A stretch of DNA of 64,000 nucleotides from Lepraria neglecta. Taxonomy: Eukaryota > Ascomycota > Lecanoromycetes > Lecanorales > Stereocaulaceae. The DNA lies in NCBI GenBank assembly GCA_033220425.1, contig CM065650.1, positions 3,286,001-3,350,000 of the forward strand. The letters are read 5' to 3'. The notes under the pieces were generated by a model. The model searched no databases, had not been told where the DNA came from, and saw only the letters and a list, made by a program, of their open reading frames with translations. Each line of letters begins with the position of its first letter. Position 1 is the stretch's first letter. Both the position numbers and the translations under genes were made by a program. Shown here one piece after another: positions 18,542-52,600 of this stretch.

Positions 18542-21010
18542 ATGGACGACAACGTTCATTCATTAAAAGGTCGACCGCTCATGACCTATTCTTGGGTAAG
18601 TGACTGCAACTCCCTGGAAGAGCGCCTGATCACGAGACGGTCTGTTAACAGGTGATGAAGGCCTCAAGCGCTGCTTTTGCGGCATTCTTCTTCGCATGGG
18701 TTTTCATCACCGCATACGGTTATTATTATCAATTCACGCTTCACATTTTCGCATTTTGCCAGTCATTGATTGCTCTCGGACTCCTGCTCTTGATATGGCC
18801 CAGAGGGCAGGCCGAGCTCTTCTCTTCTACAAGTTCGGCCAGGTCGAAGCGCAAAACAATTTTGGCGAAGTTCTGCACCTCAATCTACTTCACCTTTGCG
18901 GCCTTGTCCCTCTTCGCCCGATTCCGTGCACAGGATTTTAGGTCCGAAATTTTCCTTGTGCTGCTACGACAACAAGCCCTGACGACCATCTGCACACTGG
19001 ACTTTACGGCCTCATTGGCAATTATCGTGGCTCATATTGTAGGCTACCATGATATCTGCAATCGGATCCACCAAAGACTCCTTAAACTCGGCCAAGCTTT
19101 ACGTACCACTTGCCACATAGCTGGTAGGATTGCCTTTCAAATACTTCGAGCGTCCCCAAGGGATCTCGAGGGGCAATCTGACACCGCTCATGCGTCTCTC
19201 AATGGCCTTTCTAAGACTGGCTGCAGTCTATGTCCCTCTTCTCCTTCCGCGCTAGGGCAAGCACTTGCCGACTTGACTCCCGGAAATCAGCAAAAGGAAG
19301 ACATGAAGAATGGGATCGGAGTGGATTTGAACAAAGGATTCCAATTTCTAAGGAGGGTTTGGAGTCTATATATACGCACACACCAAGAACTCTGCTCAAT
19401 TGGTGGACACTTCAGAGGGTCTTCGGTGCGATATCGATTCCGGTTCGCAAAGCTTCCCCTCCAGAATATGTTTCTCTTCTTCGCCTCTCAGTTCCCGAGC
19501 AAGCACCAGGGGGCTCAGATTGTGCACACGAACGCGCCTTCACCGCTACCGCAGATAGTGCCTTTCAAGCTACGACCCATCCGGAGCTACCCGCTCAGTG
19601 CCAGCGAAGCTCTCATGGACATGATACAGCGTCAGCGTCAGGGTGCCATTAGTGCTCAACACCCCCAACCCTTCGACCCTACAACGCAATTCTACGAATT
19701 TTCCAGTGCGAGGCACGAGCCACACGTATCTTCAATATTTCAGCTTCCAGGAACAATCCAGAACCATCCCGTGATGGCCTTACCCGACACCGGTTCGAGC
19801 CAAAATATCATCGACAGGTCTCTTGTACAGCGCTTGAGCCCCTCTGTTCAAATTTGGCCAATCAACGGCAGCACCGACAAGCCTCTGGTCGCTCCAGATG
19901 GTGAACAAATACCGTGTGACGGTAAGGTATGCCTCCAATGGGCATTCAAGAATGAGCAAGACATATACGAGAGATGGTTTTTCGTTGTTGGAAATTGTTC
20001 TCACGGCGTCATTATCGGCAATGGGTTCTTGGAAGAGACAGAGACTATGCGTGAGCACCAGTATCGACTGGAGGTCAATATTGCCCTAGCTGCTGACCCA
20101 CGCCAAGGCAATGTTGTCAGCGAAACTCAACAAGATGATTGCACTCGCCAAATCGTGCTTGGTACAATCAACGGAGAAAAAGTGTTGGCTTCCCTTGATA
20201 CTGGTTGTGAGGCTAACCTGATGTCCGCTGATTTCGCTCGGAGCCTTGGATTGAAAATTATTCACCCGTTAATGGGTGAAAAGTATGTCAAATTTGCGAA
20301 TGGCCGAAAAGGCTCAACCATTGGTCAAGTCGAGGTGAAATGGAGCTTCTCCGACGCTCTAGACGAGGACGTCAACGTCAGATGCCACATCCTGGCCAAT
20401 TGCACCCACCAAGTCATATTTGGTGACCGATTCGTACTCTCAGAGAATCCTTGGACCAAACACAAAAATTCATTGATGCAAATGCCCTCGAACACTAACC
20501 ATGCGGGTCCCGTTGGAATGAAGAGAAATTACCCGTTCTGGAAATTCTGGGATCATAAGCCAGGTATGTCAAGCATGGGTTAACACGTCGCAGAGATGCT
20601 GACAACAACACTTAGACCCGACAACTGAACAAGATTACAAGGAGAATAAAGCCAGAAAGGACAGAGCAATGGCTCTTCTGCCACCTCAATCACAGCCACA
20701 ACGACAACTCCAGCATCCACAAATGCCAGCTTTACCGCCTCCGGCAGTCCTTCCTTCTCGTCCTTCCACAACAGCGCCTTCGCAGATCAACTCCAACGTC
20801 GTAGCATCGCAAGGGACGCCTCCTACACTCGGCCTAACACAGCCGAATGGGCCCACTAGCCATCCGACATCCCCTGCTACTTCAACCACAATACCAAACC
20901 CTTCCATTTCCCAACCCTCCGCCATGACTTCAACTCCAGCTACAAATCCACAGAATACGCAACGCAGTCCTACAAACACACCAAACGCATCATCCATAAG
21001 CCTCCCTTGA
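18542..21010 (+). CDS. Membrane protein with two tandem retropepsin-like (aspartyl protease) domains
   Basis: The model has three exons (18542-18595, 18652-20563, 20616-21010), about 786 aa, all in frame with good GT-AG introns. The N-terminal 150 residues hold several hydrophobic segments (AAFAAFFFAWVFITAYGYYY; FCQSLIALGLLLLIWP; an FTASLAIIVAHIVG segment). The middle is hydrophilic. Two related domains follow, each with a DTG active-site loop: PVMALPDTGSSQNIID with a paired VIIGNGFL, and EKVLASLDTGCEANLMSADF with a paired VIFGDRFV. They repeat with the same internal spacing of about 160 residues. The C-terminal exon is a Pro/Ser/Thr/Gln-rich tail. Retropepsin folds normally supply one domain and act as a dimer, so two in one chain could form an internal dimer. 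There is no RT, integrase or LTR nearby. I read it as a host gene of unknown function, possibly an ancient recruitment. Confidence 0.8.
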
Positions 21011-21589
21011 ACGTCTCTACCGCCAAATTTCTTGCCCCTTGCTACGTGAATATGGTCCCCAATGATAGACCGAATGACGGCGTTTCCGATCGATCTTTCT
21101 TTTTGAGCGCGGAGTTTAGAGCGCCGATACCCTAATTACCTTTCACCGCATTAGATGGGTTATACTTGGACATACTTTTCTTGTACATAAATTTGAAATC
21201 AGCGGCATTCTGGGAGGAGTCTATAGAGGTTGTACATACCACACCAAAAAGTCTTTGCCTGTAATCGTTGTGTGATGCCTCCGCAAGCTTCTCAAAACGC
21301 CAAACATTCCTGAGAAATGATCGCACAGATAATGGATAAAGGACGAGGCGCATATGACACTACCGGTGTACCAAAGCCCGGAGACTGGACTCAATCGTAA
21401 GATTTTGTATGCTGTGCAAGACATCAAGTAGCCAGATCCTCATAAAGTGACGATATCCTTCCTCAGAATGATCGTGCCATCATATTATCATGTCTCATCA
21501 TCATCCCATCATCACCAGCTAACATCAAACCAAATCAAGCTCGCTTCCATCAAAACGCTATCATTAAAGCGCAATCATCAAAGCAGCAC
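21011..21589. other. Convergent intergenic region
   Basis: About 580 bp lies between the 3' ends of the retropepsin-like gene (+) and the LQQDG-repeat gene (-). CAT/ATCA-rich short repeats occur at about 21475-21590. No gene is recognised. Confidence 0.45.
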
Positions 21590-22766
21590 TCATTTCAAAT
21601 CTTCGTCATGCTGTCCAACACCATCCATCTCGTCCTCCTTGTTTCCAATCGACTGCACCTTTTCATGTAGCACAGGCTCGCCGTGTCCATTCTGCTGCAA
21701 TGTTTCATGTAGTAGACCATCAACCTGCCCATCCTACTGCAATAATGTCAGCTTCGGACGAGCTTGTATAACAACGCGTCGCACCTTTCCATGTAGCAGG
21801 ACCTCGCCGTGTCCATCCTGCTGCAATATTTCAGGTAGCAGATTCCCGGCTTGTCTATCCTGCTGAAGGCGATTAGCCTTATGGTCTACTGGTCACACAG
21901 CTCGATGCAAATATACGTACTGCATCATCCCCAGACTTTCCATCCTGCTGCAAGGCGATTAGCTTTATGGTCCTCTCGTTCCATGGCTCGATGCAAGTAT
22001 ACATACTTTCCCAACCCTATCCACCATCTCCTGCGACCCGGCGGCGTGTGTCGAAGCACTATCCTCTCTATCCTCTCCATCCTGCTGCAGGGTCATCAGC
22101 TTTGTTTTCCCTTTAGCCTACACCTCGATGCAAGGAAATGTAACATAACATCCCCATCTGCTATACTCTGCGACGAGGTCGCTTGACAGACAGCCCCAGC
22201 TTCTCCATCCTGTTGCAAGTCCACTTGCTTATCGGATTTCTCGGCTGCAAGGCCGACTGTATTGGTAACCACGTTGGGCTTGGTCTTCTGCAAGCCCATC
22301 AATTTAACGTGCCATATAATGATTGGTTGAGGACAATAATGCTTACCTTTTCACCGCCGATGTCTTCTGCCTCACCGCCAGCCCCAACAAGCCAATTCTC
22401 GTCATCTAGCAGTTCTTTCCCAATGAAAGGCTCTTCGGACAATTTCTGCTTCTTGGTGACTTTTTGGTCCTCAGAATCAATGGCATCCTCGCTGGAGTCT
22501 TGCATTTTGCGCTTCTTGTCCTTGCCTTTCGTGGCTTTGGTGGATGAAATGGGGGGCGCTTTGGTGGTGGAGCGAACGCTTGGATTATCTGCGATGCTTG
22601 CACCATCCGGGCGCCAGTGTCATCCAACATGCTCAAGTTCTTCCAATTTGTTGCTTCGCATGTAATTTGAGACACCCAGACTGATTGGCTCCTTAGAGGT
22701 AGATAGGGTGCCATATGGATGGTACTCTTCGCGGAGACGCTCATTGAAAATTTCTAACAGTCTCAT
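21590..22766 (-). CDS. Hypothetical LQQDG-repeat protein with repeated intron-exon modules
   Basis: No known family is recognised. A chain of exons all joined in phase 0 from 22588 downward can be read: 22347-22588, 22150-22287, 22007-22084, 21921-21947, 21785-21862 and 21590-21733. It contains a basic nuclear-localisation-like KGKDKKRK, an acidic stretch, and repeats of the type (L)QQDG..GE..LLHE. Introns are at 22288-22346, 22085-22149, 21948-22006, 21863-21920 and 21734-21784. The N-terminal part starts at 22766 (MRLLEIFNERLREEYHPYGT). Read without an intron it meets a TGA at 22620-22622. A candidate 87-nt intron (22589-22675, donor GTGTCT) would bypass this and keep frame, so the gene may be whole or may carry one stop. 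An A/T-rich TATAAATA lies just upstream of the start. Transcript data would decide. Confidence 0.55.
21680..22225 (-). repeat. Degenerate repeat of TTGCAGCAGGATGG within exons and at splice junctions
   Basis: On the minus strand about seven copies of a TTGCAGCAGGATGG-like core occur, near 22215, 22085, 21948, 21862, 21820, 21735 and 21694. Some copies are fully exonic and encode LQQDG. At three copies the TTGCAG or TTCAG part is the 3' end of an intron and CAGGATGG begins the next exon. Two or three of the introns are also similar to one another (see findings). Confidence 0.75.
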
Positions 22767-49340: not shown

Positions 49341-50741
49341 TTTCTGAATCCTGAAACTCTCGCTATTATCGACACGATAGTAAGGGGGGTATACCCGTCT
49401 AATAACCGACCAACGCTATAACTACCGTTACTACTACCTACCGATTAACGCCGGCGTCGAGCTAGTCAGTCAAAATTCGAATCGAATATCGAATCGAATA
49501 GTTAACTACAAGTTATAATAGCTTCCTTAGCGGGAGTAAGATAATAACTTAGATCGGATCCTAGCGATAGTACGCTTAGAGGAGCCGACGCAGGCGAAGA
49601 AGCCGGTACTAGTACAATACAGATAAATACTAAGGAGTATACGACGTTTCAGGCCTATTAGATACACCGTTAATAGGCCTTATTAAGTTTCGAGATATAA
49701 GGGATAGTAAAGAGATTAATCCTAAGCCTGAAGATAAAAGACCTAAAGCTATATAAAGGTAATACCCCGGAGGAACTAGACGACTTTCTATATAAATATA
49801 AGTATTAGTTTAATACTAAGGGCTTTAAGCAAGAAGACCCCGAAGGCGAGATACTAGTAGGCTAAGTATATTAAAGGGAGGAAATAAAGAAGAAAGTTGC
49901 TTACGCTATAGGCTTCCTAGAGGATAGAGCTAAGACTAACTAGAAGTCTTAGTTACTATAGTTCCCGGTAGGGGCTAACTCGTAGATATATTTCAAGATA
50001 TTATTATATAAGTTCCTTAAGGGTGATAAAGATAAGGCGTATACCGAAGGTAGCTAGAAACTAGTAAACGCAAGGTAGCGAAAGGGCGATTCAGTTAATA
50101 AGTATTATAACTATATATACAAGCTATATATTCGCCTTAGGGCCCTTAATAGAGAATAATCTTTTACTAATTAATAATTCTTCGACTACTTCTAAGTATA
50201 ACTACTTTAGGAGTATAGGATAAAGCTAGACGAGCTAATTCCTAGGCCAAAGACTATATACGAACTATTATATTAGGTTTACTAATATAAGAAAATAGTA
50301 AGAATATATACGTAGAAGGACGGATAGAGAGATAAGTCTCGTCCTAAGGGGTCTACGAAACCCTAAGTTTCGAAGAAGGATAATAAATCTAACTAAATAG
50401 CTAATTATAATTAGAAGAAGGGTCGTAATAGTAAGAAGGACTTAGGTAATAAGCCTCCCTTCGTTATATAGAAGGATAAATTATCTAAAGATATCCGGGA
50501 CCGCCGGTAGAAAGATTAGGCGTACTTTAAATACAGGTTATCTAGATATAAGATATACGATTATATAGCAAAGGAATAAATATTATATAATACCTAAGTA
50601 ATACTCGATATAGTAAAAAATAAGTAGGTATAGTAATAGCTCCGACCGCTATATCTATACGAGGAGTAATTATAATAACTCCCCCCGTCGATAAATCCGA
50701 GCTAATAGATATCTTATTAGATAACGCTAGTTCGAGTTAGA

Positions 50742-50806
50742 ATATCGAGTCGAATACCGAGTCGAATATCGAATTAAATACCGAGTCGAATATTAAATCG
50801 AATACC
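50742..50806 (+). repeat. Short tandem repeat of GTCGAATAYCGA
   Basis: Several imperfect 12-15 bp copies lie in the 5' half of element E. A related stretch of TCGAATCGAATATCG lies near 49482. Confidence 0.75.
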
Positions 50807-52378: not shown

Positions 52379-52600
52379 GATATAGACTTATACGCCCGAG
52401 TAGTCTCTAATATATAGAGAAGTATAGATATTATATTTAGAGGTATAGTATAGAGGGATACAAATATTATATCTAAAGGCACCCTAGATATAGACTCGTA
52501 CGCCCGAGTAGTCTTTAAAGGTATAGACTCGTATACCCGAGTAGCCACTAAAGATATAGACTTATACGCCCGAGTAGTCTTTAATATATAGAGGGATATA
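52379..52600 (+). repeat. Tandem repeat TATAGACTYRTACGCCCGAG, about 33-bp unit
   Basis: Four imperfect copies occur near 52381, 52492, 52525 and 52557, with longer spacing after the first. The array sits between the RT and RNase H parts of element E. The minus-strand open frame through it is only the repeat read backwards. Confidence 0.8.

Follow-up and report, generated by a model that had tools for sequence, protein, structure and literature searches.

How did one small gene come to hold several introns that resemble each other, and how can the sequence that closes these introns also be read as codons elsewhere in the same gene? Both questions are raised by a locus in a 64,000-nucleotide stretch of DNA (positions 3286001-3350000 of contig C5; hereafter, the window) from a genome of 42.0 Mb in 11 contigs. 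The intron grammar of the window and the protein domains found in it (GH72 glucanosyltransferase, DUF2417 and amine oxidase) fit a filamentous ascomycete. An earlier note on this DNA had offered two readings of the locus, namely tandem duplication of an intron-plus-exon unit and the birth of introns from a coding repeat. We therefore compared the introns and coding repeats of the locus with each other, with the rest of the genome and with known systems.

Gene model and coding evidence

The locus is likely to be a small gene on the minus strand (about 22766-21590) that encodes a protein and is spliced, and its predicted features are listed in Table 1. The frame is open from the ATG at 22766 to the TGA at 21590 once i0-i4 are removed and the distal acceptor of i5 is chosen. 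The start of the gene and i0, including the boundary between exon 1 and i0, are placed in the model as a guess. When i2, i3 and i4 were read on from the preceding exon, each contained two stops, and their lengths are 65, 59 and 58 nt; the frame thus needs their removal, and retention would break the protein. From ATG to TGA the genomic sequence measures 1177 nt, and the predicted product is 801 nt after removal of i0-i5, or 798 nt with the distal acceptor of i5. The earlier note had assigned all five proposed introns to phase 0. This agreed with the chosen frame for i1-i5, although the frame across i5 was open only with the distal AG (21734) or with another acceptor.

Table 1. Predicted features of the minus-strand gene, in the order of transcription
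Feature	Positions	Strand	Details
Exon 1	22676..22766	-	ATG at 22766; stop-free; codon score 0.053 (other frames, -0.10 and -0.13)
Exon 2, lysine/acid-rich coding	22347..22588	-	codon score 0.189, exceeding 402/402 out-of-frame control windows
Intron i1, 59 nt, phase 0	22288..22346	-	donor GTAAGC
Exon 3, with X1 (22212-22150) at its end	22150..22287	-	codon score (see text)
Core copy 1 in exon 3	22218-22205	-	TTGCAACAGGATGG, which encodes Leu-Gln-Gln-Asp-Gly
Intron i2, 65 nt, phase 0	22085..22149	-	copy of the i3/i4 intron; weak donor GTTATG; 3' end CTGCAG, followed by CAGGATGG
Exon X2, 78 nt	22007..22084	-	begins CAGGATGG; codon score (see text)
Intron i3, 59 nt, phase 0	21948..22006	-	GTATGT...GCTAATCGCCTTGCAG
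Exon X3, 27 nt	21921..21947	-	begins CAGGATGG; codon score (see text)
Intron i4, 58 nt, phase 0	21863..21920	-	GTACGT...GCTAATCGCCTTCAG
Exon X4, 78 nt	21785..21862	-	42-nt coding unit B and part of unit A; the core at 21826 encodes LQQDG
Doubtful intron i5, 48 nt (51 nt with the distal TAG acceptor)	21737..21784	-	donor GTGCGA; branch-like CTGAC; acceptor TTGCAG, followed by TAG
Last exon	21590..21733	-	coding units A' and B', then tail; TGA stop at 21592-21590; codon score 0.133

Coding potential was evaluated with a codon-usage score trained on 42 long open reading frames (17,721 codons) taken from the window and from 20 further stretches of 10 kb, and both the studied locus and the AT-rich block of the window were kept out of the training set. 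With the introns removed, the expected frame ranked best in 7/7 exons and contained no stop, which makes a spliced coding gene likely. The score of exon 3 was matched by 0.5% of 734 out-of-frame windows and that of the last exon by 0.1% of 716 such windows. The evidence was weaker for X2 and X4, the scores of which were matched by 2.4% and 6.8% of 1316 out-of-frame windows, respectively. A Pfam search with the protein of the gene matched no family, and a search for relatives in viral contigs gave six pattern matches, none of which was confirmed. No paralogue of the locus was found in its own 42-Mb genome (the genome searches for the locus and its introns scored the best candidates or allowed up to three mismatches, and no match in them does not prove rarity).

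Other features were also observed in the window. On the plus strand, about 1 kb past the 3' end of the studied gene, a 644-codon open frame (18649-20580) contains a retropepsin-like aspartyl protease domain (Asp_protease_2, 2.6e-13; gag-asp_proteas, 9.1e-11). From about 37000 to 64000, the G+C content drops from about 0.49 to 0.32-0.41 over some 27 kb. This AT-rich block contains only one stop-free stretch of at least 120 codons, and tandem repeats occur in it at 52486-52592 and 50732-50806, with periods of 33 nt and 12/24/36 nt. Our guess is that the block is repeat-mutated or centromere-like.

A coding repeat that also supplies predicted 3' splice sites

Seven minus-strand copies of the core TTGCAGCAGGATGG were located within 532 nt (21687..22218), in agreement with the count of about seven in the earlier note. 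They start at 22218, 22090, 21953, 21867 (one base shorter), 21826, 21742 and 21700; an eighth match at 22616 has four mismatches and looks like chance. When one mismatch was allowed, 27 sites were found genome-wide, 6 of them at the locus, and the reversed-pattern control gave 6 in total. In each of the seven copies, the common block starts six bases ahead of the exon, and the acceptor hexamer TTGCAG is therefore intronic in some copies and encodes Leu-Gln in others. In this sense, the earlier note was literally right that the 3' splice site is supplied by the coding repeat. Such sharing of TTGCAG can arise either from a duplication that starts in the last six bases of the intron or from recruitment of a coding hexamer as acceptor, and one genome cannot decide between the two.

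The coding repeat measures 42 nt (14 codons, LQQDGHGE-type) and is present as units A, B, A' and B'. Autocorrelation placed lag 42 on top (z=5.8), and core-like words recurred about every 42-43 nt across much of the array, in both exons and introns. Downstream of the core, the 42-nt coding units were alike (0/200 shuffles for U4/U5, 0/200 for C5/C6 and 1/200 for U4/C5). B and B' differed in four codons, all of them non-synonymously, and A and A' showed two synonymous and seven non-synonymous differences; because the differences are mostly non-synonymous, purifying selection on the repeats is not evident.

Similarity of introns i2-i4 and extent of the repeated unit

The introns at 21948-22006 (i3) and 21863-21920 (i4), which the earlier note had described as clearly alike, were identical at 48 of 58 aligned bases (local score z=19.9, reached by 0/1000 shuffles), and the strings that it had quoted matched both introns with 0 mismatches. 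The kinship suggested for the intron at 22085-22149 (i2) was also upheld: the comparison of i2 with i3 gave z=7.7 (0/1000 shuffles), and the score of i2 against i4 was reached by 4/1000 shuffles. Leave-one-out profiles recovered each of i2, i3 and i4 from the other two (0/300 shuffles each), and a model built on the three introns together returned those three alone in the window at E<=10. Over aligned bases, i2-i4 were 80-83% alike.

Other candidate members of this intron family were rejected. Both i1 and i5 were unrelated to i2-i4 once the splice-site ends had been removed; as a possible ancestor of i2-i4, i1 gave a similarity that was reached by 3/500 shuffles with these ends and by 424/500 without them. 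The coding stretch 22275-22213 was considered as a former intron. It showed a weak similarity to i3 (9/1000 shuffles, or 6/200 when anchored), and its match to the intron profile was reached by 11/500 shuffles, by 48/500 without its TTGCAA end and by 100/500 after removal of the profile ends, so this candidate was dropped.

Downstream of the core, X1 and X2 were alike (3/200 shuffles), and X3/X4 reached only 9/200; over aligned bases, X1/X2 agreed at 49/62 (17 gap columns left out) and X3/X4 at 21/25 (4 gap columns left out). X2/X3 (40/200) and X2/X4 (100/200) were not above shuffles. The 3' ends of the exons together with the donor region look alike (repeat family D3; no shuffle control), and the repeat unit takes in the exon ends and the full-length intron (repeat families D1, D3 and D4). 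Because i2-i4 are alike upstream of the core, and the 42-nt coding units and X1/X2 are alike downstream of it, the repeat unit consists of an exon piece plus a whole intron. Judged from these alignments, the longer unit is nested with the shorter 42-nt coding repeat.

Quality of the splice sites and the doubtful intron i5

Donors were ranked by their enrichment in an intron-like setting in a 234-kb background (250 donors). GTACGT (i4) ranked 1, GTAAGT 2, GTAAGC (i1) 4 and GTATGT (i3) 45, and the weak donors GTTATG (i2) and GTGCGA (i5) ranked 169 and 208 of 250, respectively. From these ranks, the splice sites of i1 and i4 look sound and those of i3 appear acceptable, whereas i2 probably works by descent though weakened, and i5 is doubtful. 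The branch-like words CTAAT, CTGAT and CTGAC precede the acceptors of i2-i5, although the same words were only slightly above shuffles in the 234-kb background (9 vs 7.3, 17 vs 10.7 and 16 vs 9.0). All four intron-preceded cores carry tandem acceptors (CAGCAG at i2, i3 and i4, and CAGTAG at i5), with the two AGs three bases apart as in NAGNAG sites, and small in-frame shifts of the acceptor are therefore predicted.

As an intron, i5 is doubtful with respect to its weak donor, its sequence, which is unrelated to i2-i4, and the TAG (21736-21734) that directly follows its first acceptor within CAGTAG. Owing to this TAG, translation would stop at that point, and only use of the second AG of CAGTAG or of another acceptor would let it continue. 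The in-frame codon score of i5, on the other hand, was as low as that of only 4% of 1085 coding windows; i5 is thus not coding-like, which speaks for an intron.

Distribution of the intron sequence in the genome

The earlier note had set the locus apart from dispersed introners because everything in it was local, and a genome search for the shared intron sequence bore this out, with no other copy of the intron found in 42 Mb. The 21-nt pattern of the intron 5' end occurred at this locus only, plus one site with three mismatches. The 3' pattern, with up to three mismatches, matched 13 sites, 2 of them at the locus (reversed control, 0). The 11 other sites comprised nine of one kind and two single sites, which lie at the start of contig C7 and on the small contig C11. 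Five of these 11 were examined; the exact 3' match in them was a word of 12-14 bases, and gapped alignments ran along most of i4 at two of the five. At the four sites tested, the sequence before the shared word was no closer to i3 or i4 than shuffles were (229 to 500/500); the fifth (L044), in which 16 bases precede the shared word, was left out of the shuffle test. The exact word CTTGCATCGAGC occurred 11 times, once at the locus, and its reversed control occurred 5 times.

L041, L042 and L043 (contigs C1 and C3) and six more sites of the 3' pattern lie in a dispersed repeat with GCTAATCGCCTT, which was AT-rich in the three copies examined. The GCTAATCGCCTT word is also present at the 3' ends of i3 and i4, and the likeness goes no further. 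Separately, repeats of the GTAAGTAAGCAAGGAAGCAGGCAAGTAAG type were observed at C4 5197278, C5 4923640, C7 13431, C8 4474169, and C9 93713 and 85702, the copy on C7 being near the start of the contig.

Origin of the repeated introns

The 3' half of the gene may be understood as a two-level tandem repeat, of which level one would be the LQQDGHGE-type coding repeat of 42 nt and level two an exon piece plus a whole spliceosomal intron, as in X1-i2, X2-i3 and X3-i4. Slippage or unequal exchange between TTGCARCAGGATGG cores would copy a pre-existing intron along with its exon. Because the introns are in phase 0 and removed, every added module would contribute an in-frame exon. It is probable that one existing intron was amplified, along with the adjacent exon, by slippage or unequal exchange within the coding tandem repeat. 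Of the two readings in the earlier note, tandem duplication of an intron-plus-exon unit is the one supported, as the likeness spans the exon end, the intron and the exon start. That the introns are spliced, that duplication was the mechanism and that an intron predated its copies are points that we infer from comparisons of sequence.

In the other reading, 42-nt coding units would themselves have become spliced, by means of an internal donor and, as acceptor, the TTGCAG of the unit that follows. We consider this quite unlikely. The intron-bearing core spacings of 84, 86 and 128 nt are near multiples of 42, TTGCATCGAG in i2, i3 and i4 lies 43 nt ahead of the next core, and i5 fills one unit length in register; introns within coding tandem repeats are also described in the cited parts of reports on fission yeast (PMC3629103) and human repeat genes (PMC10809524). 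However, the fourth spacing, 137 nt, does not fit, and the intron lengths (65, 59, 58, and 48 or 51 nt) are not multiples of 42. The start of i5 resembled the tail after unit B' when GTGC was counted (33 and 53/1000 shuffles in two scorings), but this similarity fell to 219 and 204/1000 shuffles without GTGC. Furthermore, the bodies of i2-i5 resembled the 42-nt unit only at the level of shuffles, as the score of a profile of the four coding units was reached by 88 (i2), 87 (i3), 232 (i4) and 278 (i5) of 300 shuffles. Intron birth from the coding repeat is therefore not supported; it would be conceivable for very old events, for which the sequence gave no positive sign.

It is also unlikely that the locus is a decaying repeat or pseudogene, in which the splice signals and the frame would be leftovers, whether or not it ever was a gene, or that the other strand is the coding one. 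Decay would be consistent with the TAG at 21736-21734, the weak donors of i2 and i5, the mostly non-synonymous differences between repeat copies and the lack of a homologue in the libraries searched (Pfam, own genome and viral contigs), but the expected frame was the best one in all seven exons, and the last exon was still coding-like past the TAG (0.1% of 716 out-of-frame windows). A stop-free stretch of 173 codons on the plus strand (22144-22662) had a codon score of -0.027, which is below the coding mean (0.026) and above the off-frame mean (-0.132), whereas the spliced minus-strand model scored 0.128, well above it, and a second plus-strand stretch (21432-21863) scored -0.227. Plus-strand coding was rejected because both stretches scored below the minus-strand model, although 22144-22662 is still not clearly noncoding. 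Introner-like elements of fungi are near-identical introns dispersed within one genome, whereas the searches located the intron of this locus in a single gene. Three chance landings of such an element in one gene would fit the presence of near-identical introns in a fungal genome, and also the finding that a word of 12-14 nt from the intron 3' end recurs in a dispersed AT-rich repeat and at two other sites. This explanation is highly improbable, as the 5' pattern was confined to the locus apart from one site with three mismatches, the upstream sequence at the four testable outside sites was at shuffle level, and exon sequence is common to the copies on either flank, a pattern that insertion would not produce.

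An array of candidate one-codon exons on contig C1

A scan for neighbouring intron-like segments (at least 70% similar and within 600 nt of each other) was carried out in 264 kb, made up of the window plus 20 samples of 10 kb taken at even spacing from contigs C1 and C2, with 766 candidates and no shuffle control. The scan gave two loci, the studied gene, in which i2 stayed unpaired at the 70% threshold, and L019. One find per 200 kb of samples is a very rough base rate.

The second locus lies at 4.80 Mb on contig C1 (4798525-4801472; L030:1525-3000 and L019:1-1472) and contains 38 consecutive homologous intron-like units. The units, which occupy 4798531-4801472 and measure 70-77 nt, follow ATG AGT, with exactly three bases after each. 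Most units have the form GTAAGT/GTACGT ... GCTAATT ... TATAG; the donor is GTAAGT in 29 units, GTACGT in 8 and GTAAGC in 1, and the end is TATAG in 37/38. The parser used for the array demanded a branch-like word, AG, three bases and GT, and the repeat spacing of 73/79 nt is visible without the parser. When joined, the codons read MSREAALALLRREIELEFLRERARERALERAFRALEKADE, after which come an intron of ordinary appearance and an open frame of 136 codons. Column entropies were compared in 26 units (27/38 units are 76 nt long, and the last of those was left out). The three codon columns had entropies of 1.54, 1.95 and 0.93 bits and the intron columns averaged 0.22 bits and did not exceed 1.14 bits, indicating that the triplets vary and the remainder of the unit is kept.

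A DNA search gave 15 matches, all of them inside the array. The pattern GTANGTN{40,70}TAGNNNGTANGT matched 63 sites, 36 in the array and 27 elsewhere, with 76 in the control; the CAG version of the pattern revealed no array (27 matches vs 55 in the control). The predicted product of the array gave no Pfam match above the cut-off, and no paralogue of it was found. The peptide showed no amphipathic periodicity at 100 degrees (1293/2000 permutations reached the value), which speaks against a designed helix; of the nine angles compared, 80 degrees gave the lowest permutation count (82/2000) and 160 degrees the next (93/2000).

The array on contig C1 is a more surprising object than the locus in the window. 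A narrow-term search found no description of a comparable array of one-codon exons in the portions of the literature that it returned, and the cited part of PMC5639578 mentions two 3-nt exons in one fungal gene. In this genome, coding sequence may have been built repeatedly by tandem amplification of an intron plus a short exon, a suggestion that we make tentatively. The locus in the window (three introns, exons of 27-78 nt) would then be a mild case and the array on contig C1 (38 introns, one codon each) an extreme one. In such arrays, the DNA repeat could grow or shrink without damage to the frame, and the exon bases would be free to vary. If truly spliced, the array would represent a naturally occurring gene in which dozens of exons are one codon long, and would test the smallest exon and the densest intron array that a spliceosome can handle.

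Comparison with known systems

In Cryptococcus neoformans CNN00420, introns 3-5 are identical and intron 2 differs by one base, and the cited part of the report (Sharpton et al. 2008, PMC2395259) gives lengths of about 39 nt for the exonic and about 107 nt for the intron-containing repeats, along with EST support and variation of repeat number between strains. As described there, CNN00420 is like the present locus in being a single-copy gene with several near-identical introns and with short exonic repeats nested with intron-holding repeats. The features of that type, namely at least two homologous introns, a unit that includes the exon ends and the full intron, and additional short exonic repeats, were all found here. 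The two differ in the length of the exonic repeat (about 39 nt vs 42 nt here) and of the longer unit (about 107 nt vs 128, 137 and 86 nt here). Moreover, introns 3-5 of CNN00420 are identical and EST-supported, whereas the candidate introns of the present locus are 80-83% alike. The core seen here is exonic in some copies and a predicted 3' splice site in others, a double use of which no mention was found for CNN00420 in the cited part of PMC2395259. On this comparison of sequence features, the locus is the CNN00420 design with more diverged copies and is not a new mechanism; intron gain by this route is known, although it has seldom been caught.

Other systems share single aspects with the locus. 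In human UBC and VCX3A, tandem repeats contain dual-specific splice sites and the intron length is a multiple of the repeat (cited part of PMC10809524). There, too, introns and coding tandem repeats share splice-site sequence, and repeat expansion was proposed as the source of introns; however, each of those sites is a donor or an acceptor, whereas the core here is an acceptor only, and the intron lengths here (65, 59, 58, and 48 or 51 nt) are not multiples of 42 nt. In fission yeast, 24-nt exonic repeats became introns that are made of repeat units (cited part of PMC3629103). A tandem coding repeat with phase 0 introns is common to both cases, whereas the intron bodies here are unlike the 42-nt coding unit, and homology of the intron body to the adjacent exon, as in the Rogers model and in fission yeast, was not detected in i2-i5 (87-278/300 shuffles). 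In potato RdRp, an intron was gained by tandem duplication across an intron-exon boundary (cited part of PMC4974935). The duplicated segment likewise spans that boundary and acceptor signals were copied with coding sequence, but one new intron arose there with a donor from the former exon, whereas whole introns were copied here.

Internal duplications in which whole introns are carried along, Arabidopsis TOUCH3 among them (Knowles and McLysaght 2006; Gao and Lynch 2009, both as cited in PMC4974935), represent the process proposed for the present locus, in which a pre-existing intron is multiplied by tandem internal duplication. The cited part of PMC4974935 sets such multiplication apart from true intron creation, and by that definition i2-i4 are multiplied, not created. 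According to the cited parts of PMC4974935 and PMC3629103, the origin of most newly gained introns is untraceable. At the present locus, the source of the introns is visible next door, with copies of differing similarity in one gene; the order of duplication, the fate of the donors (as in the weakened i2) and the use of tandem acceptors are therefore testable by RT-PCR and strain comparison, and the locus is a good natural test case for intron multiplication.
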